A stretch of DNA of 32,263 nucleotides from Candidatus Eiseniibacteriota bacterium (GTDB lineage Bacteria > Eisenbacteria > RBG-16-71-46 > CAIMUX01 > WJJG01): positions 1 through 32,263 of the forward strand of contig JAGMBO010000039.1 in NCBI GenBank assembly GCA_023129715.1, written 5' to 3'. Numbering within the stretch: position 1 is the first letter of the stretch; every line of letters starts with the position of its first letter. The notes under the pieces were generated by a model, which was given only the letters and a program-made list of their open reading frames with translations, did not search any database and was not told where the DNA came from. Position numbers and translations under genes: made by a program. Positions 4,036 through 31,355 of the stretch are shown here, in pieces.

Positions 4036-5304
4036 TCAGTCTTCCCAGGTCGGGTTCATCACCCGTCCCATGAAGAGGATCGCGCCGGAATGCCGGTCCC
4101 GGATCGCGAAGAGGAAGGGGCGGTCGGCGTAGAATCCCGGGGTGGCCGATTCGATCATCTCGACCACCGTCACCGCCGCGGCTTCGGTGCCTTCTTCATT
4201 GACCTCGATCACCGCCTTGTGCAGCACGCGGCTGATCCAGGGATCGCGAGGGCTGATGCCGGTGAAGTCGGCTGCCGGGGTGAAGGCGATTCCCATCCCG
4301 AGCGCGGTGAGGACATCATTGAGCAAAAGATCGTAGGCCAGCTTGAACTTCGGCATGTGGACATCGATCTCCGACGGGGAGAGCCTCGCGATCCATGCGT
4401 GCCATTGCTCGGGCGTCAGACCGGAGATCACCTCACCGAGATCCCGATCCCGGTCGGGCAAGATCAGGGTCATGCGGAAATCCCCGACCCCATAGGGCAG
4501 ATCGAGGCCCCGAATACCTTGCTCGAAATCGTAGAAGGTCTCGAACTCGCCCCCCTCCATGGACATCATCTGACAGGTCGTCTGTTCGCCACCCGCAAGG
4601 AAGAATGGTGCCGGAGCGGTATCCTCTTCATCGAAAAGATACGTCCAGGTTCCCTTGAAGTAGATCGCGTTGATCAAGTACATGACCACATCGGGAGGGA
4701 TCGCCGTGAGCATGCGGGGGATCAGGCCATGGGTTTTCTCGGAGATCCAACCGTTGATGATGTCGAGGGCAGCGGGATCGCTGAAATCGAGCTCGCGGGT
4801 CTCGGCATCGAACGTCTCGCGGTTGAGTTCGAGGAACGCCTCCTCGACCGGATAGCCGAGCCGCGGCCAGATCGAATTGGCGATCTCGAGGACGACGTCG
4901 GGGTCGAGACCGGCGAGCAAGTCGAGGAGCCCGCGATACGAATCGTTGATCTGCTCGCGAGTGAGACCACTCAGTTCGAGCGCGGCATGCATCGCCGTCT
5001 CAGTCTCGCCCCGGGCGCCATTGGCGGTCATCGTCAGAGCCATGGCGACGCTGAACGGGGAGATCACGATACTCGAATCGGGGGCTTCGTGTTGGGCGAT
5101 TTCGCGGAACAGCTGGAAGGCGAAGACATTGTCGCAGGTGACCAGCTGCTGCTCGGCAGCCGTTAGCGAGCGCGGGGGGACCCGGCCGCCGGGATCGGGA
5201 TCGGTCGGTCCGCGGGAGCATTGGGCGAGGAGCAGAGCGACGGAGCCGGCTAGGATGAAGAGGAAAACCCCTCTCCCGGCCTGGGATCGAGACCAGTGAG
5301 ACAT
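4036..5304 (-). CDS. Serpin (serine protease inhibitor), predicted lipoprotein
   Basis: A 422-residue complete serpin fold. Residues 11-29 form a hydrophobic signal ending LLLAQC, so Cys29 is the likely lipid-modified residue, although Gln at -1 is an unusual lipobox. Serpin landmarks are ISPFSVAMAL (81-90), NAIYFKGTW (212-220), HKAVIEVNEEGTEAAA (362-377) and the C-terminal RPFLFAIRD plus FMGRVMNP. The hinge E370-E371-G372-T373-E374-A-A-A fits the inhibitory consensus (small residues at P12-P10), so it should be able to insert its reactive loop and trap a protease. Counting from Gly372 as P15 places P1-P1' at Ser386-Ala387, which does not point to a trypsin-like target. The ATG at 5304 has GGAGGTG about 5 nt upstream; an upstream in-frame ATG at 5400 lies within the tandem repeats and adds a repeat-coded, non-serpin extension. 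It is monocistronic in view. Confidence 0.95.
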   Translation of the reverse strand: MSHWSRSQAGRGVFLFILAGSVALLLAQCSRGPTDPDPGGRVPPRSLTAAEQQLVTCDNVFAFQLFREIAQHEAPDSSIVISPFSVAMALTMTANGARGETETAMHAALELSGLTREQINDSYRGLLDLLAGLDPDVVLEIANSIWPRLGYPVEEAFLELNRETFDAETRELDFSDPAALDIINGWISEKTHGLIPRMLTAIPPDVVMYLINAIYFKGTWTYLFDEEDTAPAPFFLAGGEQTTCQMMSMEGGEFETFYDFEQGIRGLDLPYGVGDFRMTLILPDRDRDLGEVISGLTPEQWHAWIARLSPSEIDVHMPKFKLAYDLLLNDVLTALGMGIAFTPAADFTGISPRDPWISRVLHKAVIEVNEEGTEAAAVTVVEMIESATPGFYADRPFLFAIRDRHSGAILFMGRVMNPTWED

Positions 5305-5305
5305 G

Positions 5306-5469
5306 GCGACACCTCCACGAGAGAGTATGGCCCGGAAGCGCGCGTTGCGACACCTCCACGAGAGAGTATGGCCTGGAAGCGCGTGTAGCGACACTGCCAC
5401 GAGAGAGTATGGCTCGGAAGCGCGTGTAGCGACACACCTCCACTAGAGAGTATAACCTGGGAGCAGGTG
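5306..5469. repeat. Four tandem copies of a 41-bp repeat in the serpin leader
   Basis: Copies begin at 5306, 5347, 5388 and 5429, each opening with GCGACA and separated by exactly 41 bp. The last copy is the most diverged and carries a 2-bp insertion. Read on the serpin strand each unit holds a T/CATACT box followed by TCTCT and, in three of the four copies, a GGAGGTG ribosome-binding sequence; the copy at 5388 has GGCAGTG instead. Only the copy next to the ATG at 5304 is correctly placed for translation. The copy farthest upstream has the best -10-like box (TATACT). The unit is not a multiple of three, so it is not coding. Unlike CRISPR there are no unique spacers. Confidence 0.9.
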
Positions 5470-5821
5470 CGGTGGCGGCTCTAGGTCATCGATTCGTGCG
5501 GGTCTCCGAGGCCGCATGTCACCGAGCCTCAGTAAGCTCCAAGGCTTCCCTTTCTCCTACCCGGGCAGGAAGTTCCCGGTTCCTTTCGAGCGGATGGCGC
5601 CCGGCTGGGGGTGCGGCTTCGCCGGGAGGGGGGGGGCTGGGCCGGGGGTTAGAGGCGCCGGGGCGAGCGCCTTCCTGAGGGAATCCGCCGGCGAGAAGCC
5701 CGGTTGATGGATGCCGGCTCGCCGCAGTCCATGGAGCGTCAGGATGAACATTCCCCGATCCGGGATCGTCTATAAGAGGTGAAACGGCGAACGGCCTCGA
5801 TGCAGAGGAGACCCCCCGCCG
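5470..5821. other. Divergent intergenic region between serpin and ECF sigma gene
   Basis: No credible gene is seen; the short open frames lack ribosome-binding sites and protein-like composition. It contains a G-run near 5628-5637. A TATAAG box at 5771-5776 lies about 46 nt before the sigma-factor ATG, but no good -35 partner is found upstream, so a promoter is only suspected. Confidence 0.4.
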
Positions 5822-6415
5822 ATGACCGACGCGGAATTGGTGGCCCTTTCCCAGCAGGGCGACTCACAGGCTTTCAATAGGCTGGCCCGCAAGTGGCACG
5901 CCGGGCTCTACCATTTCGTGCACCGCACGTTGGGGAATGCCGAGGAGGCACAGGATGTCTGCCAGGAGGCGCTGCTCAAGGCCTACCTCAACATCCGTCG
6001 CCTGCGCGATCCGGGCAAGTTCAGGGCCTGGTTGCACCACATCGCGCTCAACCTTTGTCGGGATTGGCACCGCGCGGCGCGGGCCCGCCCGACGGGGCCG
6101 TCGATCGATGATGTGCGCCCCGCGGATCTCGTGCCCGCCGCGGGCGCGGCGACCGGCACCGAGCGCCGGGCCGAGCGGAACGACCTGCTCGCCATGGTCC
6201 ATGAGGCTCTCGAGAGCCTCTCGTTGGAGCAGCGCACCGCGATCTTGCTCCGCGAATACCAGGGGTTTGCCTCCCAGGAAATCGCCGAGATCACCGGGGT
6301 CCCCGCAGCTACAGTGCGTACGCGCATCTTCTATGGTCTCAAGTCGGTGCGGCGCATGTTGGACGAGCGGGGCATCCATCCCGGCCTGCTCGGCGAAGGA
6401 GGGCCGCAGCAATGA
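5822..6415 (+). CDS. ECF-type RNA polymerase sigma factor
   Basis: A 197-residue sigma factor of the extracytoplasmic-function group with region 2 (about residues 10-78, including AEEAQDVCQEALLKAY and FRAWLHHIALNLCRDW) and region 4 (about 125-180, including LSLEQRTAILLREYQGFASQEIA, a helix-turn-helix, and VPAATVRTRIFYGLK). A Pro/Ala-rich linker joins them. It directs core polymerase to stress or envelope promoters. Its stop overlaps the ATG of the next gene by 4 bp (ATGA), so it is translationally coupled to a membrane anti-sigma factor, the standard arrangement for release by an envelope signal. No consensus GGAAC/GTC autoregulated promoter was found upstream. Confidence 0.95.
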   Translation: MTDAELVALSQQGDSQAFNRLARKWHAGLYHFVHRTLGNAEEAQDVCQEALLKAYLNIRRLRDPGKFRAWLHHIALNLCRDWHRAARARPTGPSIDDVRPADLVPAAGAATGTERRAERNDLLAMVHEALESLSLEQRTAILLREYQGFASQEIAEITGVPAATVRTRIFYGLKSVRRMLDERGIHPGLLGEGGPQQ

Positions 6416-7272
6416 CATCAGAGTTCCTGGATCCACGCCGTGAGCGGCTGATCGCGGCACTCTACGGAGAGCTCTCATCGCCGGAGCGAGAGGCGTTCGA
6501 GGCGGAACTCGAGCGCGATGAGGAACTGCGCGCGGAGTGGGAGGAGCTCTCCTCGACGCGCTCGTTCCTGCAGGCCGCGGTCGATGAGCAGCCGGCGCCG
6601 CAGTTCGTCTTCTTGGCGCCGCCGGGGGCGGCGAGAGATGAACCCGCCGCGCACCGATCGTCGGGGCGCCGGTTCTGGTCGAGCCCCCGCGGTCCGGCGT
6701 TGGGGTTTGCCCTTGCGGCGGCGAGCCTGGTGGTGATGCTCGTGCTCGGGTTGCGCGTCGATCGGATCCCCGGCGGGCTCTGGGTGCACTTCGGGAATGC
6801 TCCGGACTCCGCACCGGTCTCGCTTCCGATCGGGGAGGGCCGGTTGGCGGAGGGGATCCCCATCGAGCCGAACGCAAGTCATCCGGCACCGGCGCAGTTT
6901 GTCGGCGGGCCGATGACCGAGATGGTCTCGGGGCAGACGGCGGCGGCCGGGTCCTATCTCACCCACGCGGAGTTTGCGACCTACTCGAGCCAGATCATGG
7001 AGCTGATGGCCAACGGCCTGAGCGACTACGAGAACCGGCGCCAAAGGGAACTGCGGCGCGTCCTGCGCGGCGTCTACCAAGACTTCGATGAGCGCCAACA
7101 GCTAAACCGCCAGGAGATTGGTGCGGAGTTCGAGCGGGCCTGGCTGCGTCTGCTGGAAAGCAGCCAGCAGAGCGTTGAGCCCGGTTCGAACCTGCCGGTG
7201 AGCGGTGCACGGGGCAGCCGGCCGACATCGCCCCCATCCTTCCCCGGCAATGCGCCCGGGAACGGCAACTAA
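6412..7272 (+). CDS. Membrane-anchored anti-sigma factor
   Basis: A 286-residue protein called as anti-sigma from its coupling to the ECF gene and from its topology. An N-terminal acidic helical domain (residues 7-60, ERLIAALYGELSSPEREAFE and following) resembles anti-sigma domains of the ZAS type but has no His-x3-Cys-x2-Cys zinc site. One transmembrane helix lies at about 95-114. The periplasmic part has a Pro-rich linker and a charged helical region (about 180-255, rich in Arg, Glu and Gln) and ends in a Pro/Gly/Ser-rich tail. The N-terminus would hold the sigma factor in the cytoplasm and the periplasmic helices would receive the signal. The next gene starts 10 bp later. The family cannot be named from sequence alone. 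Confidence 0.8.
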   Translation: MTSEFLDPRRERLIAALYGELSSPEREAFEAELERDEELRAEWEELSSTRSFLQAAVDEQPAPQFVFLAPPGAARDEPAAHRSSGRRFWSSPRGPALGFALAAASLVVMLVLGLRVDRIPGGLWVHFGNAPDSAPVSLPIGEGRLAEGIPIEPNASHPAPAQFVGGPMTEMVSGQTAAAGSYLTHAEFATYSSQIMELMANGLSDYENRRQRELRRVLRGVYQDFDERQQLNRQEIGAEFERAWLRLLESSQQSVEPGSNLPVSGARGSRPTSPPSFPGNAPGNGN

Positions 7273-7281
7273 GGAGGAGTC

Positions 7282-8214
7282 ATGAAGACCCATGGCGTGT
7301 GTCGGTGGAGCAACGCGGTGCTGGTCCTCTGCGGCCTGCTCCTGGTCACCAGTGGTCTGACCTTGACCGCGACCGCGGATGACGAAGAGAGCATTTCGCC
7401 GAAGCTGAAGCGCCAGATCCGCTTGATGGAGACGATCATCGACGAGATGCTTCTCGACAGTCCGAATTTGCTCGTCTTCTCGAACTCCCCGACGCAGGGC
7501 GTTTATCTCGGAGACTACGGCGTGGTTTTCACCCTCGAGGCTTCGCTCGTCAGCCACGGCTTCTTCCTCGACGGCAAGGAGGCGTTCAGCATCCTGCGCG
7601 ATATCCGCATCGACACCGAGGATGGCCGCGTCGTGATCTGGTCGGGTGACCACGAAGACGACGAAGACGACGAGAAAAGAGAGTCACACAAATACCGAGT
7701 GCGTGTGCGCGATGGTGGTGATTGGGATGCCGTCTATGAGGATGATGACGCAGACAGGGACGATGATGTGGGCGAGGATGAAGATGACGATGCCGACGAG
7801 GATGACGATGCAGACGAGGATGAAGACGAAGACGCCGACTATGACGAAGAGGACTACGACGAAGACGACTGGGACGACGACGACAACGAGGACATCATCA
7901 TAGATTTCTTTGGTTCCAAGGGAAAGTCATTCAGGGAACTTCGCCGCGAGAAGGCCGAGCGGGCGCAGGAGAACTACGAGAAAGGCAAGCAAGAGCTGAT
8001 CGAAGTCCTCACCGGGTACGGCGATTCGATGACTCGCCTGGCGGACGATCAGTGGGTCGTGATCGCGGCTTTCTTGAAGCAGAGCGACTTCTTCAAAGAC
8101 GAAGAGATCTCGCGGCTGATCCTCAAGGCGCGCATGCGCGATCTGCGCGACTACGGCCGCGAGCGCATCTCGGCCGACGAGATGGCCGCGCGCATCGTCC
8201 TCGAGGAGTACTAG
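7282..8214 (+). CDS. Secreted/periplasmic Asp-Glu-rich protein of the sigma cassette
   Basis: A 310-residue protein with a signal peptide (hydrophobic 11-28, likely cleaved after TATA at 29-32). A folded-looking region (about 38-120) contains MLLDSPN and GVYLGDYGVVFTLEASLV. Then comes an almost wholly acidic stretch (about 122-206, mostly Asp and Glu with a few Tyr and Trp) and a basic-acidic helical C-terminal domain (210-310). AAGGAGGAG sits immediately upstream of the ATG, a very strong ribosome-binding site. Position as third gene behind sigma and anti-sigma suggests it is the extracytoplasmic partner or a main output of the system. The acidic block could bind Ca2+ or other cations. I do not recognise a characterised family. 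The acidic region is GA-purine-rich low-complexity DNA, so its length may vary between strains. Confidence 0.8.
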   Translation: MKTHGVCRWSNAVLVLCGLLLVTSGLTLTATADDEESISPKLKRQIRLMETIIDEMLLDSPNLLVFSNSPTQGVYLGDYGVVFTLEASLVSHGFFLDGKEAFSILRDIRIDTEDGRVVIWSGDHEDDEDDEKRESHKYRVRVRDGGDWDAVYEDDDADRDDDVGEDEDDDADEDDDADEDEDEDADYDEEDYDEDDWDDDDNEDIIIDFFGSKGKSFRELRREKAERAQENYEKGKQELIEVLTGYGDSMTRLADDQWVVIAAFLKQSDFFKDEEISRLILKARMRDLRDYGRERISADEMAARIVLEEY

Positions 8215-8275: not shown

Positions 8276-10012
8276 TCACGGCTTGAGCTGGGCGCCGCTG
8301 GGGACGACCGTGGCGCCCTCTTCCTTCGCCCGCCTCCAGTGGACCCACTCGTCCTCGGTCAGCGCACAACGTCCTTCCAGCGAGTAGGTGGCGCGGGCGT
8401 TGTAGGTCCAGCCCAAGGCGTCAGAGCCACCCCCATTGTGCGTGGTGATGAACATGCGGTGTGAGATTCGGCCGATGTAGTCGGCCTGACCGCCGGGGGA
8501 CGGCTGGTCGCCGCCGCTCGGGTCGATCGGGACCCAGCCATAGGGGGGCAGGTAGACCTCGGCCCAGCGATGATGGACATCGTCGATGCTGACGTCGTCA
8601 CCGCGCAGAGCGGCACCTGCCTCGTAGCGCGCCGGCAGCCCCGCGGCCCGGCAGAGACCGATGTAGAGGAAGGCATACTCGGAGCACGATCCGGTTCCGC
8701 GCTTGATCAGCGTTACCGGGACATCCCAGCCGCCCACGCGTTCGTACTCGAGCGCCTCGATCACCCAATCGAAGACCTTGCGCGCGATCCAGTAGGGATT
8801 CTGCTCGTCTCCGACGATCTTCTTGGCCGTTTCCTGAACCAGCGGATGACTGACTTGGAAGCGCGTGCCATCCGCCGTGTACGCCTGGCGGATCGACTTG
8901 GGGATGTCATCGAGGGACCCGACCTTCTCCGGAATCAAGATGTAGTTGAGATGCCCTACCCGGATGCGGGTGCGATAGCCGACCTCGAACAGCTCTCCCG
9001 GCGCGATCACCGCCTGCTGGAACGTCGCGATCGTCTGCCCCCAGCGATCCTCATGGATGCGCGGCGCGTGCGGGGCATACTCCAGAGCATCGAGTACGAT
9101 CTGATTCTCGAGCTCACCGGCCGGGACCGCGAAGTGAACGACGGCATCGACGATCTTGCCGGGGCCATGGTTCTCGATCCGGTAGGTGAGATGAATCTCG
9201 GCCTCGCGCCAGTCGCGCGTCTGATAGGGCCGCGCCTCGCGCGGGGCGCAGAGGCGCAGCAGGCCGTCCTCGAAGTCGGCGACCCATAGCCGGCCCGCGC
9301 CCGCCGGCGCGATCCCGCAGGGGTAGGGACCGGGGGAATCGAAGCTGGTGATGGCCTTCCCCGAGGCGGGATCGACCATGTAGATCCGGTCGTGGCGGCG
9401 CTGCGCGACCCACAGATAGGTGCCATCGAAGGCGATCCCATTGGGTTCCCGCCGGGGCGCTTCGAAGTAGGTGAGTGCCGTCCCATCCTCCGGGATCAAC
9501 TGCTGCAGCGAGTGGTCGCCGTTCTCCGCGAGCCAGAGCGCCTGACCATCCCAAGCCAGGCCCAGACCGCCGCCATGGGGGGTGGGATAGGTCGTTTCGG
9601 TGCGTCCCGTGGCGGGATCAAAGACGAAGATCGCTCCATCGAAGTCGTCGGCCACATAGAGCAGGCCATCGGCCCAGGTCAAACCGCGCGGCCGGTAGCA
9701 GGGGGCTGGAACCCGTTCGAGGACCGCCTCGGTTTCCGGATCGAAGCGGAGCAGTTCCCCTCGTTGCCAGTCGGTCACCCACAGAGCCTCGCCGTCCCAG
9801 GCGATGTCGCCGGGCGTGTCGGTCGGCAGGGGCAGCACCCTGACGACCAGGCCGCCGTCATCGGTCTCACCCGGCGGGATGGCGGCAGCTCCGCCCGCCG
9901 CATCGGAGGCGGCCGCCGCCGCCGCGGGCACCAGATGAAGACACAAGCTCACACACAGAGCCATGCTCAGCCCCATCCGCAGAGCCATGTGGAGAAGGTC
10001 GGAAAAGATCAT
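8276..10012 (-). CDS. Exported beta-propeller/transglutaminase-like fusion protein
   Basis: A 578-residue exported protein. An N-terminal signal (about 1-35) is followed by five propeller repeats starting near residues 67, 108, 148, 190 and 231 (pattern P-x-G-[IL]-x-[WF]-D-G-x-x-L-W-V), as in NHL/Vgb-type propellers. A beta-rich linker (265-380) follows. The C-terminal transglutaminase-core domain has Cys443 in GTGSCSEYAFLYIGLCRAAG, His481 in HHRWAEVYL and Asp497 in PIDPSGG, a complete catalytic triad of the protease/transglutaminase fold. It may cleave or cross-link peptides in the periplasm, with the propeller binding the partner. GGGAGGTG lies about 4 nt before the ATG at 10012. It is 52 bp downstream of the SDR gene and probably cotranscribed. 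Confidence 0.88.
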   Translation of the reverse strand: MIFSDLLHMALRMGLSMALCVSLCLHLVPAAAAAASDAAGGAAAIPPGETDDGGLVVRVLPLPTDTPGDIAWDGEALWVTDWQRGELLRFDPETEAVLERVPAPCYRPRGLTWADGLLYVADDFDGAIFVFDPATGRTETTYPTPHGGGLGLAWDGQALWLAENGDHSLQQLIPEDGTALTYFEAPRREPNGIAFDGTYLWVAQRRHDRIYMVDPASGKAITSFDSPGPYPCGIAPAGAGRLWVADFEDGLLRLCAPREARPYQTRDWREAEIHLTYRIENHGPGKIVDAVVHFAVPAGELENQIVLDALEYAPHAPRIHEDRWGQTIATFQQAVIAPGELFEVGYRTRIRVGHLNYILIPEKVGSLDDIPKSIRQAYTADGTRFQVSHPLVQETAKKIVGDEQNPYWIARKVFDWVIEALEYERVGGWDVPVTLIKRGTGSCSEYAFLYIGLCRAAGLPARYEAGAALRGDDVSIDDVHHRWAEVYLPPYGWVPIDPSGGDQPSPGGQADYIGRISHRMFITTHNGGGSDALGWTYNARATYSLEGRCALTEDEWVHWRRAKEEGATVVPSGAQLKP

Positions 10013-18947: not shown

Positions 18948-21900
18948 ATGATCCGCAGAGTGATCCTCGCACTTCCATTGACTGTCGCGATGGCGCTTGT
19001 TCTCTTGCAGTGCGACAGCACGAGCCCCGAGACCGAAGAACTTAGCTGCCTCGAACTCACGGCCGAGGGGCCGATCGCGCCGGACACGCCATTCATGCTC
19101 CAGGTGGTCGCCGTTGGCTCTCGCGGCACGAAGCCTTTCAGTCGATGCGATGGGACCGTTGCGCTGACGGCTTCGGAGGGGACGATCGAGCCGGACACTC
19201 TCCTGATGGCAAGTGGTACGGGGCAACAGGAGGTCCGGCTCCCGGATCTCGATGAGAGCCTGACCATCACAGCAGTCTATGGCGCGGTCCGTGGCTCGAC
19301 CACTGTCTACACCACGTTTCCCGACCGTCTGGTGGGGGATCCCGACTCGCCTGCAGCGCCGGCTATTCCGGCGATCCGTTACATGGCCCGGGTGGAAGAT
19401 TTCTCTCGGGACCACCCGGATCTGCCCGAAGTGTCACTATCGAATTGCGTGATCCTGGTGATTCCTGCAGAAACCGCCACCATTGGCGATATCAATGCCC
19501 TCTTTGAGACCCACAGCGCCGTGGTCGTCGGAGGCGATCCGGCGCTGGGAGGTGGACGGGTTGGTTTGCTTGCGCTTCGCTTGCCGACACGGACGTGCGG
19601 CGAGCTGGAGGAGGTCTTGGAGGTCATCCGCGCGAATCCGGCCGTCGACGAAGCCGTGCAAGACATTCTGCTGCGCGGCTGTGCAGTGCCTCCTCCGAAT
19701 GGAGGCACGCCAGCTCAATGGGAGTGGGAGCGGCAAATGGCGTACGGGAATCCGACCTGGGGCCTGCGATCGATCAGAGCTCCGCAGCTCTGGAACTTCA
19801 ACCGCGTGGTCGAAAAGCGTGGGGCCAGTCAATCACTAGCGATCATCGACATCGGTTTCGGAAGGCTGCATCCCGACATTCCCTACCATGGGGAGTCAAG
19901 GTTCGGAGACCCTAGTGATCATGGGACTGCAATGGCCGGAACCGCCGCAGCCCTTCTCGGCAATCGCAGAGGCATTGAGGGGGTGAGTCCCTTCTCTTCC
20001 GTTCTTGCGTGGGCCATTGGAATGCTGCCGCTCGGTCCTGATTCAATTGAGTGGGGGGCGAGCTGGGCAGAACTGATACTCAATGGTCTTCAAGATGTAA
20101 TCACCTCATTCCCAGAAGTGCGGATCATCAGTACAAGTCTCGGCTATGACTGGGACCGGGGCGGCATCAATCCCGTGGGCAACGATCCGATTGAAATACT
20201 CATTCTGTCCCAGTCGATGATCCTGCTGAAGTGGCTCAGCAAAATGGAAAACGAAGGACTCACGCTTCCCTTGATCGTATCTGCTGCCGGGAATGATGAT
20301 CGGCTTGCACCAGCACCGTGGGAAGCCCGCTATGAGTCGCCGATCAATGATGCTGGTATCGAGTCGGGGGTGCAACAGATCCTCGTCGTCGAGGCCTTGA
20401 AGCGACTTCCGACCGGGCAGGAGCAGAGATGGGAACGCTCTTTCACTAACGGGCACATTTCGGCTCCCGGAGTGGGGCTCTGCTCCACAGTGCCTCCCTC
20501 CACCTATGCCTGCGGCTTGAGTGGCACTTCGTTTGGGCCGCCCCAGGTGGCTGGCCTTGCCGCCTACCTTCTTTGCCTGGATGCCACATTGACCACCCTC
20601 GAGTTGCGAGAGTTGATTGTCTCGAATGCTGCGCCCTTGGACGGGGAGGGCGCACCTCGAATCGATGCATGGGCAAGCGCCCTGGACATCGATCGACTTC
20701 GGAACAACGATGCGGTCCTCCGGATGATGGTGGATATCGACGACGGCACGGTGGATGGCAATCAGCGAACGACGTTCGATAGTGGCAGCGACTACACCGA
20801 GGATGCGTGGGGAGACGGGCGCATCGATATGTCGGACTTCCGCCGGTGGCGGGACTGGCTGCTACAGGTCGAGCCGACGTCCCTGCCGCAGTTGGATGGA
20901 TCGGCAACGCACAAGAAGAAAGACGTCAATGGTAATGGCGTGGTGGAAGATGGCGAGGACGAGAGCTTGTTTCCGTACGGGGATTTCAACGGCGATGGCA
21001 CGCTTGGGCGTACGGGAATGGGGCGAGTCCCGGGAGCGCTCAACAGGTTTGCATGGGATCTCGATGTGCTCCAAGCCGTCTTTGAGGACGAGGACTACAC
21101 AACCGACCAGTTGCCGGGCTTGATCGATTCGGGAGATCTGACGATCTGGCCCCGCTGTTTCCTTGCCTTGCCGGAGATGGTGGTCGTGACATCTACGGTG
21201 CAGGTAACGGACACGGGAGAGCAGATCGACCAACGCAATCATGGAGCAATCGGTGCGCTTCAGGTGTACACGTTGCCAATCGATCCCGGGTACTACACTG
21301 CCCGTGTGGAAGCATTCGATTGGGATCTCGCCAGTCTCGCGATGGATGAGAAAGAATTCGTGATCGCGCTCGGCGGAGATATCTTCTGGGATCCACCCTG
21401 CGGCGAGTGTATCGTGGAGATCGCGTTTCCGGAGACCGGGGATTACTACGAGGATCTCCCGCTGACAGTACGAGTGGGCAGAGAGCTCCCTGACGGGAGT
21501 GTCCTGTATATGGAAGGGCTTCTGGTAGCCCTGGTTCCCACTTTCGGTATCGTTGATGAGACCGAGAACTACACCGATGCATCCGGCTATGTGTACGCGA
21601 CTGCACAGATGTTGCCGCCAGCCAATTACATGACCATCGATGTCATTGTGCGCTGCTCGGAAGAGGATATCGTCCAGCGACAGGTCACCGCGATACGGAG
21701 CGTGTCTCCGGGGACGTGGTTGCTCGACTGGGCGGACTCGGGCCCCCGAGACTTTCATTACGTGAATGAGATCCCTCAAACCTACGGCACGACCCTTCCG
21801 GATGGAGGGCTCAGCATTGCTTTCAACCTGGGGACCCCAGATCCTCAGGCGTCTCTGCGGGTGTTGGATTTCGGAGCCGTGACGCTAGGAGAACCGGTCG

Positions 21901-22247
21901 AGTGTCGTCTCCAGATCGTTTACGGAGATCCAGACTATGCCTGGTCCCCATTCAACTTTGGTCATGGAGCGGAGATCCTTAGAACATACGTGACCTTCAG
22001 CAAGATCGAGTATCCGATTTCGCCGAGTCCTTTTGGCAAGCTCTCAGGGGAGATCGAGGGCCGGTTGGGCATGTACCATCTTGACGGATCGAGCTACAAG
22101 ATCGTGACGATCCTATCTGCGGAATTCGAGGACATTCTCTTCGTGCTTGATGAGAAGTTTCGAGAGAACGGACGGAGCGGATTGCCGACAGACCTCGTGG
22201 ATAAGTTGAGGCGAGTGCGCTCCGTCGACGCGGAGGGAGTTCGCTAA
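18948..22247 (+). CDS. Subtilisin-like (S8) serine peptidase, predicted lipoprotein with EF-hand/dockerin-like loops
   Basis: A 1,099-residue exported protease. A signal (1-21) ends VLLQC with Cys22 as likely lipidation site. Residues 35-125 look like an Ig/invasin-like domain, and 143-245 resemble a subtilase propeptide (VILVIPAETATIGDINALF, then ANPAVDEAVQD). The catalytic domain (about 265-585) carries D301 in IIDIGFG, H325 in DHGTAMAGT, oxyanion N449 in SAAGND and S528 in LSGTSFGPPQVAG, so the triad is intact. Acidic loops follow: WGDGRIDMSDF (621-631), DVNGNGVVEDGE (659-670, a good EF-hand loop) and DFNGDGTLG (679-687). The remaining 400 residues are beta-rich and unassigned. AGGA lies 6 nt before the ATG. 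Codon use looks less GC-skewed than in neighbours, with more A/T-ending codons, suggesting the segment arrived separately. Confidence 0.92.
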   Translation: MIRRVILALPLTVAMALVLLQCDSTSPETEELSCLELTAEGPIAPDTPFMLQVVAVGSRGTKPFSRCDGTVALTASEGTIEPDTLLMASGTGQQEVRLPDLDESLTITAVYGAVRGSTTVYTTFPDRLVGDPDSPAAPAIPAIRYMARVEDFSRDHPDLPEVSLSNCVILVIPAETATIGDINALFETHSAVVVGGDPALGGGRVGLLALRLPTRTCGELEEVLEVIRANPAVDEAVQDILLRGCAVPPPNGGTPAQWEWERQMAYGNPTWGLRSIRAPQLWNFNRVVEKRGASQSLAIIDIGFGRLHPDIPYHGESRFGDPSDHGTAMAGTAAALLGNRRGIEGVSPFSSVLAWAIGMLPLGPDSIEWGASWAELILNGLQDVITSFPEVRIISTSLGYDWDRGGINPVGNDPIEILILSQSMILLKWLSKMENEGLTLPLIVSAAGNDDRLAPAPWEARYESPINDAGIESGVQQILVVEALKRLPTGQEQRWERSFTNGHISAPGVGLCSTVPPSTYACGLSGTSFGPPQVAGLAAYLLCLDATLTTLELRELIVSNAAPLDGEGAPRIDAWASALDIDRLRNNDAVLRMMVDIDDGTVDGNQRTTFDSGSDYTEDAWGDGRIDMSDFRRWRDWLLQVEPTSLPQLDGSATHKKKDVNGNGVVEDGEDESLFPYGDFNGDGTLGRTGMGRVPGALNRFAWDLDVLQAVFEDEDYTTDQLPGLIDSGDLTIWPRCFLALPEMVVVTSTVQVTDTGEQIDQRNHGAIGALQVYTLPIDPGYYTARVEAFDWDLASLAMDEKEFVIALGGDIFWDPPCGECIVEIAFPETGDYYEDLPLTVRVGRELPDGSVLYMEGLLVALVPTFGIVDETENYTDASGYVYATAQMLPPANYMTIDVIVRCSEEDIVQRQVTAIRSVSPGTWLLDWADSGPRDFHYVNEIPQTYGTTLPDGGLSIAFNLGTPDPQASLRVLDFGAVTLGEPVECRLQIVYGDPDYAWSPFNFGHGAEILRTYVTFSKIEYPISPSPFGKLSGEIEGRLGMYHLDGSSYKIVTILSAEFEDILFVLDEKFRENGRSGLPTDLVDKLRRVRSVDAEGVR

Positions 22248-28818: not shown

Positions 28819-29451
28819 TCATTGCGACCGGTCGGACTGATTACGGGCCAGGTTCAACAGCTTGGAGCTGATCTGCAGCCCGGCCTCCTGCGCCAGCGCC
28901 TGGCTGATATCGAAGCGCACGCGATCACCGTCGCGGAAGAGGCGAATGATGGTGCCATCCCTGGATTCGTCCCAGATGCCGACGGTCAGGGTCCCCGCCG
29001 GGTGGGCCGGCGCCAGCGGCGGAAGGAGATCCAGGACTGCCTCCTCGCCTAAGACCAAGACCTCGCACTCCCGCGCCTCGGCCGGGGCGGTGACACCGAT
29101 GACCGCGACGCCATAGGGCGCGCTGTGCCGGCGTTCGTTCTCCTGCTCCGCTAGCTGCGCCAGCACTTCCAAGAGCGCGTCGTCGCCGCTCACGCCGATG
29201 TGCAGTGTGTCGCCCATGGGTGTGGGCCAGCGAACGAAGTCCGGGAACCTCAGCAGGAACGCTGCCTTGGTCGCCACCTCGGTCATCTCGGTCACCTGCA
29301 CTTCGTCCATGGTGTCTTCGTACTTCACACGTACGGTGGAAGCGGAGGCAGGCGGGGTTACGAACAGCAACCCCAGGGCCGGGCATGTCAATGCCACGAG
29401 CAGCACTTCGGCCGCACGTCGGCATGCCTGGCGAGATGGCCTGCATCTCAT
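28819..29451 (-). CDS. YfiR/HmsC-like (DUF4154) periplasmic protein
   Basis: A 210-residue exported protein of the YfiR/DUF4154 family (PF13689). After a signal peptide (about 1-38, ending PASAS) come the family hallmarks ATKAAFLLRFPDFVRWP, a THIGVSGDDALLE-like strand (here LHIGVSGDD), and the C-terminal FDISQALAQEAGLQISSKLLNLAR. In Pseudomonas YfiR is a periplasmic repressor of the diguanylate cyclase YfiN; elsewhere the family is often encoded beside TonB-dependent transport genes, as here, where it diverges from tonB. No diguanylate cyclase partner is in the window. The ATG at 29451 has GGGGG about 8 nt upstream; the longer frame from 29589 adds residues with no signal-peptide character. 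Confidence 0.9.
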   Translation of the reverse strand: MRCRPSRQACRRAAEVLLVALTCPALGLLFVTPPASASTVRVKYEDTMDEVQVTEMTEVATKAAFLLRFPDFVRWPTPMGDTLHIGVSGDDALLEVLAQLAEQENERRHSAPYGVAVIGVTAPAEARECEVLVLGEEAVLDLLPPLAPAHPAGTLTVGIWDESRDGTIIRLFRDGDRVRFDISQALAQEAGLQISSKLLNLARNQSDRSQ

Positions 29452-29585
29452 CTGCAATCCCCCACCACGGACAACGCACCAGGCACCCGGCACCACGCCG
29501 GGCGGGAGGTGCGCGAAGGGACGGGGGCGAGGCGACGGATGACCGGCTTCGCGGGCCGGCATCCTGAGCGCTTCACCCCCGGCTG

Positions 29586-29614
29586 ACAATACGCGGATTC
29601 GGCAAGCGGGGCAA
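29586..29614 (-). promoter_or_regulatory. Candidate promoter for the YfiR-like gene
   Basis: On the minus strand TTGCCC (29614-29609) and TATTGT (29591-29586) are 17 nt apart, each four of six to consensus. It implies a leader of about 125 nt. The rest of the 374-bp divergent region (29452-29825) has an A-rich patch near 29636-29670 that may hold the tonB promoter, but I find no matched pair of boxes. Confidence 0.3.
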
Positions 29615-29825
29615 GCCGACCAAGAAGCGTAATGCCGTTTGAGAAAAGAAACAAGACTGCCGAACTACTAGGGAGATGACCCGAGCGCGAGCCCGATGGC
29701 GGCCTGGCCCGTGCCTGGGGCGACTTGGCGGCCTGGGTCGCGATTCTGGGGCCGGCGGCGGGCTGTTCCGGCGGCGGGAACCCCGTGAGCCGCCTGAAGG
29801 CCTTGGTGATTCGGGAGGTCTGCGC

Positions 29826-30617
29826 TTGTTCGAGAGCATGATCGAATCGCGCCGCGACCTGCGGCCGTCCTGGCGGCCGGGGACGTTCGGCGTGGCGCTC
29901 GGCCTGCACCTCTGCCTGCTGGCGGCGATCTTGGTCGGGAGCCACCTCCATGTGCCACCCATCAGCGAGCCGGCCACACGCGTTACTTTCTTGCATTTCG
30001 CGCCTCCTGCGGCGGCCGCGGCACCGGCCCCGGCATCTGAGTCCACTCCGGTTCTTGCGCAGCTGAAGCCCGAGGCGCCACAAGAGGTGCTCGCCGAGGT
30101 GGTCCAGCCGCAGATCACACCCGAGGCGGTCCGCACCGATCCCGTTGCGCCGGAGGCGTTTCCGGCGACCAGTGCGGGAGCGACGGAGAGCCTGCCCGAA
30201 GGCGTCCCGGGCGGCATTTCGGAGGGTGTTCCCGATGGCATTCCCGGGGGTGTTTCGGGTGGTGTCCCCGGCGGTGTTCCAGGCGGTGTTCCGGGGGGCG
30301 TGCTTGGCGGTGACCCACTCTCCGCCGGGCCGACATGGGCCTGGGGCGAGTTCGCGGCTCCCGTGGTGATCCATCGCGCGCGCCCCGTGTATCCGGTGCT
30401 GGCAGAGAATGCCCGCCTCGAGGGTGCGGTGAAACTCGAGGCGGTGATTCGCCGCGATGGGACGGTGGGGGAGATCAGGGTCGTGCAGGGTCTGAGCCTG
30501 GGGTGCACGGAGGCGGCGATCGAGGCGCTCAAGCACTGGCGCTTCCGGCCCGGGGAGCGTAACGGCGTTCCCGTCGATGGGGTTTTCGAGCTGACGGTCG
30601 ACTTCAGACTGAACTAG
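29826..30617 (+). CDS. tonB: TonB-family energy transducer
   Basis: A 263-residue inner-membrane protein that carries proton-motive energy to outer-membrane receptors. It has a short cytoplasmic N-terminus, one transmembrane helix (about 20-38), an Ala/Pro/Glu-rich periplasmic linker, a tetrapeptide Gly-Val-Pro-Gly block (residues 126-161) and the C-terminal TonB domain (about 175-262) with VIHRARPVYPVLAENARLEGAVKLEAVI, IRVVQG, AAIEALKHWRFRPG and FELTVDF. I prefer the TTG at 29826 because GGGAGGT lies 6 nt upstream; an in-frame ATG at 29838 is poorly spaced. The frame stays open to 29676 but that part is Arg-rich and unlikely coding. It heads the tonB-exbB-exbD-exbD operon. Confidence 0.92.
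   Translation: MFESMIESRRDLRPSWRPGTFGVALGLHLCLLAAILVGSHLHVPPISEPATRVTFLHFAPPAAAAAPAPASESTPVLAQLKPEAPQEVLAEVVQPQITPEAVRTDPVAPEAFPATSAGATESLPEGVPGGISEGVPDGIPGGVSGGVPGGVPGGVPGGVLGGDPLSAGPTWAWGEFAAPVVIHRARPVYPVLAENARLEGAVKLEAVIRRDGTVGEIRVVQGLSLGCTEAAIEALKHWRFRPGERNGVPVDGVFELTVDFRLN
30201..30308 (+). repeat. Nine in-frame 12-bp repeats within tonB
   Basis: Nine consecutive 12-bp units encode the tetrapeptide Gly-[Val/Ile]-[Pro/Ser/Leu]-x, six of them ending in Gly. Third-position bases differ between units, which argues for protein-level selection as well as slippage. Confidence 0.9.
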
Positions 30618-30629
30618 GGAGCCAGCGCC

Positions 30630-31355
30630 ATGCAGCCTGTGACCCACTACGGACCGATCGAGATATGGCAGTCGATGGGGACGGTCGGACACTTGGTCCT
30701 GATCATCCTGCTCCTGATGTCGGTCTATGCGACCGGGATCATGTTCGATCGTTGGCTGTTGCTTCGCAAGGCGCACAGGCAATCGCTCGAGTTCGTCCGG
30801 GTGGCACGACGCCTGCTTGCCGAGGGCAAGCTCACCGACCTGGTCGAGGAAGCCGCGAAGCACCCGCAAAGCCACCTGGCACGCATCTACTCCGCTGCCA
30901 TCCTGGATACAACCCCTTGGCGTAGCTCAGGTCCTCCAGGCGAGGGCTTCGAAGACACGATTCGCAGCGCCACCGAGCGCGAGGGCGCACGAATCACCCA
31001 GGAGTTCAAGCGGGGCCTCTCCGGCTTGGCATCGATCGGGTCCACTGCGCCCTTCGTGGGGCTGTTCGGAACCGTGATCGGCATCATGAACAGCTTCTTC
31101 GGCATGGCCGCGACCGGGTCCGGCGGGATCGGCGCGGTGTCGGGCGGCATTGCCGAGGCGCTGGTGAACACCGCCGCCGGGATCCTGGTCGCGCTTCCCG
31201 CCGTCTGGGGCTTCAACTACTTCCTGGGACGGCTGGAGCGCATCCACAGTGAGATGAGCAACGCCAGCAGCGAGCTGGTCGACTACTTCATCAAGAAGTC
31301 GCGGAGCGATTCATGGAAGCTCGAGGCTACGACGGGCCGGCCGGTCAATCGCTGA
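30630..31355 (+). CDS. exbB: ExbB/TolQ/MotA-family proton channel protein
   Basis: A 241-residue inner-membrane protein forming the pentameric core around an ExbD dimer. Helix 1 lies at about 17-38, followed by a large cytoplasmic loop, then helices near 128-155 and 170-195. The conserved core is GLSGLASIGSTAPFVGLFGTVIGIMNSF and IAEALVNTAAGILVALPAVWGFNYF, with the Thr/Ser residues that line the proton path. GGGAG lies about 9 nt before the ATG, 12 bp after the tonB stop. Its 3' end overlaps exbD by 43 bp in another frame, indicating tight coupling. Confidence 0.95.
   Translation: MQPVTHYGPIEIWQSMGTVGHLVLIILLLMSVYATGIMFDRWLLLRKAHRQSLEFVRVARRLLAEGKLTDLVEEAAKHPQSHLARIYSAAILDTTPWRSSGPPGEGFEDTIRSATEREGARITQEFKRGLSGLASIGSTAPFVGLFGTVIGIMNSFFGMAATGSGGIGAVSGGIAEALVNTAAGILVALPAVWGFNYFLGRLERIHSEMSNASSELVDYFIKKSRSDSWKLEATTGRPVNR

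Follow-up and report, generated by a model that had tools for sequence, protein, structure and literature searches.

Background

The ECF sigma factors studied to date read promoters with AAC and CGT boxes, often regulate their own transcription and are kept in check by an anti-sigma factor transcribed with them (PMC8103513). Among the closest described systems, RpoE-RseA-RseB of E. coli has the gene order sigma factor, single-pass zinc-less anti-sigma factor and periplasmic third protein, together with autoregulation and a regulon connected to the outer membrane. In the CnrH-CnrY-CnrX metal resistance system of Cupriavidus an ECF sigma factor, a membrane anti-sigma factor and a periplasmic sensor are encoded together, and CpxP/Spy-type proteins follow a logic in which an exported stress product possibly feeds back on its own regulator.

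Here we describe an operon from a Candidatus Eiseniibacteriota bacterium, encoded in a stretch of 32,263 nucleotides that was analysed as a whole and is referred to as the window. As a module of ECF sigma factor, membrane anti-sigma factor and periplasmic third protein it is of an already known kind. It resembles RpoE-RseA-RseB in gene order and, on our predictions, in its autoregulation and the outer-membrane connection of its regulon. However the third protein, whose family we call ACI, is unrelated by sequence to RseB, as is the anti-sigma factor to the RseA Pfam models, there is no adjoining rseC, and unlinked copies of the third protein are themselves predicted sigma targets. The Cnr system differs in gene order and in its proteins, ACI being without a metal-sensor Pfam match, whereas Cpx is a two-component system and ACI gives neither an LTXXQ family match nor a fold match. 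What is new is the ACI family, the presence of its unlinked copies under the same predicted promoter and the link to DUF5916 genes.

A conserved three-gene operon

Within positions 5822-8214 of the window three co-directional open reading frames on the forward strand encode the sigma factor, the anti-sigma factor and ACI (Table 1). The genes are real and form one operon. An earlier note on this DNA had described them as tightly packed, which holds for the 4-bp ATGA overlap of the first two, but the gap between the anti-sigma and ACI genes, given there as 10 bp, is 9 bp when counted (7273-7281) and contains a GGAGG-type ribosome site.

Table 1 Features of the sigma operon, with positions in the window
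Feature	Position	Strand	Evidence
Predicted ECF promoter: TGAAC (5745-5749), 17-bp spacer, CGTCTA (5767-5772)	5745..5772	+	Comparative genomics
ECF sigma factor, 197 aa; sigma2 ~5885-6082, sigma4 ~6194-6343	5822..6415	+	Pfam, NCBIfam sigma70-ECF, orthologs in 11/47 phylum genomes
Anti-sigma factor, class I-type, single-pass, no zinc motif, 286 aa	6412..7272	+	NCBIfam antisigma, alignment, hydropathy
Exported ACI protein, 310 aa; signal peptide, N half ~7399-7644, linker, C half ~7930-8211	7282..8214	+	Homologues in 12/47 genomes, AF2
Acidic linker core, residues 153-204	7738..7893	+	D/E count, degenerate repeats

The sigma factor, 197 residues in total, consists of sigma2 (Sigma70_r2, PF04542, residues 22-87, E 4e-16) and sigma4 (Sigma70_r4_2, PF08281, residues 125-174, E 7e-14) only, with a short linker of 37 residues between them, which is the architecture of an ECF (group IV sigma70) factor. 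Its partner gives a weak but specific match to the NCBIfam antisigma model (6.7e-9, below the cut-off of the model) and has one hydrophobic transmembrane segment at the hydropathy peak (residues ~96-114, nt ~6697-6753), followed by a predicted periplasmic part (~6955-7176) that is conserved and, judging from the sequence, probably helical. No zinc motif is present, as previously proposed: the protein has no Cys in 286 residues, lacks the Hx3Cx2C pattern and matches zf-HC2 (Pfam) at E 0.13 only. This does not make it distinctive, since ~44% of class I anti-sigma domains (ASDIs) are likewise without a zinc motif (PMC7406223).

In order to assess conservation we used a set of 47 genomes of the phylum (Candidatus Eisenbacteria). 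A single sigma ortholog was found in each of 11 genomes (E<=6e-87). These genomes also have the anti-sigma factor (E<=2e-24), and five further weak matches to it are probably other anti-sigma factors. The ACI family is present in 12 genomes, including all 11 with the sigma factor. ACI is linked to the sigma and anti-sigma genes in 10/10 genomes allowing a linkage test, always as the next gene after the anti-sigma gene: the three are contiguous in G000, G001, G002, G005, G006, G007 and G010, and in G004, G008 and G014 the contigs break within the anti-sigma gene with two pieces that complement each other. As the three genes recur jointly in 10 genomes their order is beyond chance, and the proposal of one conserved three-gene cassette is thus borne out. 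G012 was left out of the linkage count, its anti-sigma gene being cut after the N domain by an apparent assembly join or rearrangement. At this site (G012:C138, L120 ~1488-1600) the truncated anti-sigma gene meets the start of a polysaccharide-flippase-like ORF head-on, reflecting either an assembly chimera or a recent rearrangement.

In G009, the twelfth ACI genome, the sigma and anti-sigma factors are both absent, and the genome containing the window encodes a further ACI on contig C135, next to an MscS-like gene. The earlier note had named as contrary evidence the acidic protein occurring mostly apart from sigma and anti-sigma genes; this is not what we see but the balance is close, with 10 copies linked and 8 not, and a sigma-type promoter ahead of 7 of the latter.

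The predicted promoter and its candidate target genes

The predicted promoter TGAAC-N17-CGTCTA lies 49 bp ahead of the sigma start. Its GAAC and CGTC boxes, at the exact 17-bp spacing, are found upstream of all 11 sigma genes (the 7/7 full operons together with G004, G008, G012 and G014), and shuffled sequence matches the motif in 0.3-2.2% of cases. These predicted sites show the AAC/CGT boxes, and point to the autoregulation, that are frequent hallmarks of ECF factors. Across the 11 operons identity is 0.93-0.96 in the boxes versus 0.30 in the spacer, so that the conservation does not merely reflect an alignable flank. A scan of the region for Sigma70-type promoters found none.

The motif was chosen by eye on the upstream sequences of the operons, whereas the tests on ACI copies and DUF5916 genes used other genes and are therefore independent of that choice. 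A weight matrix trained solely on the 11 sigma promoters was applied to these genes. In sigma genomes each of the seven unlinked ACI copies is preceded, 32-125 bp ahead of its start, by a site with a score in the range 10.8-23 (shuffle p of 0.001-0.005 for each copy, with a log10 product of -19.8), and the unlinked copy in sigma-less G009 has no promoter site (score 0.3, p 0.75).

Strict motif matches in the order also precede exported CBM9/DUF5916 proteins; DUF5916 proteins we take to be outer-membrane barrels. Upstream regions of DUF5916 genes in the order score >=13 in 11/28 cases, versus 2/168 when other spacers are used. The motif precedes 10 of the 21 DUF5916 genes in sigma genomes, the other 11 being without it, as compared with 2/29 in a sigma-less set made up of G009 and family f10 with G003 left out (Fisher p 0.001). 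G003 is an exception in that it has a motif-bearing DUF5916 gene with no sigma factor found in its 87% complete assembly. In G012 a DUF5916 gene is transcribed divergently from the sigma operon, with one site for each. The genome containing the window has a DUF5916 gene on C102 preceded by TTTCAAC-N17-CGTCTAG and two on C14 that score 2-3 (a further gene on C126 was left out of the scoring).

Searches of that whole genome are less informative as a source of targets. As ~2 exact matches are expected by chance, the second exact match was not counted; it lies at C134:8649, where a short ORF starts within a contractile/type VI-like-looking cluster. A search allowing one mismatch is unusable as a regulon list since it returns 57 matches versus 112 for the reversed control.

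Two observations were made beside these tests. In G007 a strict motif lies ~58 bp before a gene for an exported protein with ankyrin repeats, the C-terminal part of which may be metallo-hydrolase-like (G007:C42:127914, L141); the gene is a possible further regulon member. In sigma-less family f10 the sites ahead of DUF5916 genes at L208 and L217 are of the type CAAC/TAAC-N17-(C)GTC, which suggests that a different ECF sigma factor may control DUF5916 genes there.

A proposed envelope-stress module

On balance we favour the view that the locus encodes a self-activating, RpoE-like ECF envelope-stress module, in which the sigma factor would control its own operon, the unlinked ACI copies and some DUF5916 genes, and in which ACI would be a periplasmic product of the regulon and its long acidic tract not the sensor. 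The anti-sigma factor would keep the sigma factor at the inner membrane until an envelope fault or signal led to its release or cleavage, as for RseA and RpoE, and the freed sigma factor would then read TGAAC-N17-CGTCTA promoters, predicted here by comparative genomics, at its own operon, the unlinked ACI copies and the genes for DUF5916/CBM9 outer-membrane barrels. The levels of ACI and of some of the barrels would rise as a result. ACI, with its predicted two-half periplasmic fold and disordered, usually acidic linker, would most likely be an envelope effector of a chaperone- or stabiliser-like kind, and the copy in the operon probably feeds back on the periplasmic part of the anti-sigma factor, similarly to RseB or CpxP. 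If so, an uncultured phylum gains a concrete predicted envelope-stress regulon with its sigma factor, anti-sigma factor, promoter sequence and target genes, and one regulator is predicted to connect an orphan periplasmic family with outer-membrane proteins of the DUF5916 type. In the literature searched we found no mention of DUF5916, and a search for 'Eisenbacteria' together with 'sigma factor' returned a soybean rhizosphere study only.

The presence of ACI in 11/11 sigma genomes, directly after the anti-sigma gene wherever this can be tested, raises the question as to whether it is primarily a signal receiver, an RseB- or CnrX-like co-regulator that binds the periplasmic part of the anti-sigma factor and releases it on meeting a ligand, with the unlinked copies as paralogs for other signals. 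We regard this as rather doubtful. Most of the unlinked copies stand behind a sigma-type promoter without an adjoining anti-sigma gene, as would be expected of an output, and ACI gives no RseB, LTXXQ/CpxP or metal-resistance Pfam match. That G009 keeps ACI without sigma factor, anti-sigma factor or promoter argues that the protein has a function independent of the system, and together with the promoter shared by the unlinked copies this points to an output rather than to a receptor only.

It is also conceivable, though improbable, that several sigma factors read the shared promoter as a common ECF motif, the unlinked genes being connected to this sigma factor by coincidence only. AAC/CGT boxes correspond to the textbook consensus for ECF promoters (PMC8103513), CAAC/TAAC-type variants are present ahead of a few DUF5916 genes of sigma-less f10, and the motif also precedes two other ECF sigma genes (G007:C31:39501, L126, and G010:C581:19959, L134), where a cascade or a shared specificity is possible; some predicted targets may therefore belong to another sigma factor. 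Against this, only 2 exact sites occur in the whole genome containing the window, 5 of the 9 strict sites in G007 precede the sigma operon, ACI or DUF5916 genes, and the corresponding genes of sigma-less G009 are without it.

The ACI family and its acidic linker

ACI has no meaningful sequence match in Pfam, NCBIfam or the PDB (none below E 0.1 in the last). Among 15 members of the family there is no MucB/RseB Pfam match and no match to the LTXXQ and Metal_resist (CnrX-like metal-resistance) models at E<=0.5, and Foldseek searches of the PDB with two AF2 models, of this ACI and of a short-linker homologue, gave none at E<=0.001. Matches to Pfam CDC45 and similar families are regarded as charge-bias artefacts over the acidic tract, and an origin of the two halves by internal duplication was rejected (hhalign probability 0.3%). 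A wider locus search, with a narrow alignment, found 4 loci only, three under the title Candidatus Eisenbacteria and the fourth under 'bacterium'. In the ACI tree linked and unlinked copies cluster but do not form two clean clades, with weak support. It is possible, and we put it forward tentatively, that ACI founds a new and apparently Eisenbacteria-restricted periplasmic stress family without a recognised fold relative, acting both as ECF co-regulator and, through the unlinked copies, as amplified output, with linker length and charge tuned by lineage.

The ACI protein of this operon has a signal peptide followed by N half, linker and C half. Its AF2 model supports the earlier description of an acidic stretch between two folded-looking domains, the halves being mostly at pLDDT >90 and the linker with its acidic tract at <50, and the element order is unchanged in the model of the short-linker homologue (mean pLDDT 82). 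The stretch had been described as ~85 almost uniformly acidic residues; it is indeed acidic, but residues 124-210 contain 53/87 D/E (61%), broken by KYRVRVRDGGDWDAV, and are near-pure only over a core of 52 residues (41 D/E). The DNA of the tract is made of degenerate 18-bp and 15-bp repeats.

The idea that this tract is the functional core of the protein is not supported by comparison across the family. The linker here has 144 residues and a net charge of -46, as against 39-85 residues and +1 to -18 in the 14 other measurable members (61-85 residues and -3 to -18 in homologues at the operon position), and the conserved residues S60, P61, V65, G80, K236, E238, D287 and E309, positions without or almost without variation, sit in the flanking halves. 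Conservation does not extend to the ~85-residue acidic tract: among the variable, disordered and mostly acidic linkers of the family it represents the longest. Given the variation in length and charge, the conserved positions in the halves and the predicted disorder, the tract is most likely a repeat-driven, lineage-specific linker extension and not a sensor. Binding of divalent cations is a general property of Asp-rich tracts and 14/15 measured linkers are net acidic, but with length and charge varying several-fold, some members close to neutral (+1 in the unlinked copy of G007, -3 in the operon copy of G005), the conserved residues outside the segment and the tract itself repeat-derived, a reading developed from the earlier note's proposal of an acidic signal receiver or cation buffer, in which the acidic segment is the functional part and serves the ECF system as a periplasmic cation (e.g. 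Ca2+) buffer or cation sensor, is very unlikely.

Sequences flanking the operon

Elsewhere in the window, overlapping GC-rich tandem repeats of 12/24/36 bp were seen at 30195-30316, in or near an ORF without a Pfam match (29448-30875, reverse strand). Convergent with the operon, at 8276-10012 on the reverse strand, is a gene for an exported transglutaminase-core protein whose N-terminal part is beta-propeller-like (Vgb/SMP-30/NHL). Directly upstream of the sigma operon and divergent from it lies a serpin gene (PF00079, E 9e-109; 4036-5400, reverse strand), and the same window holds a subtilase gene at 18948-22247. A 41-bp repeat array (3.6 copies, 88% match, score 229; 5306-5453) at and upstream of the serpin 5' end separates the serpin from the sigma operon and artificially extends the N terminus of the serpin ORF.
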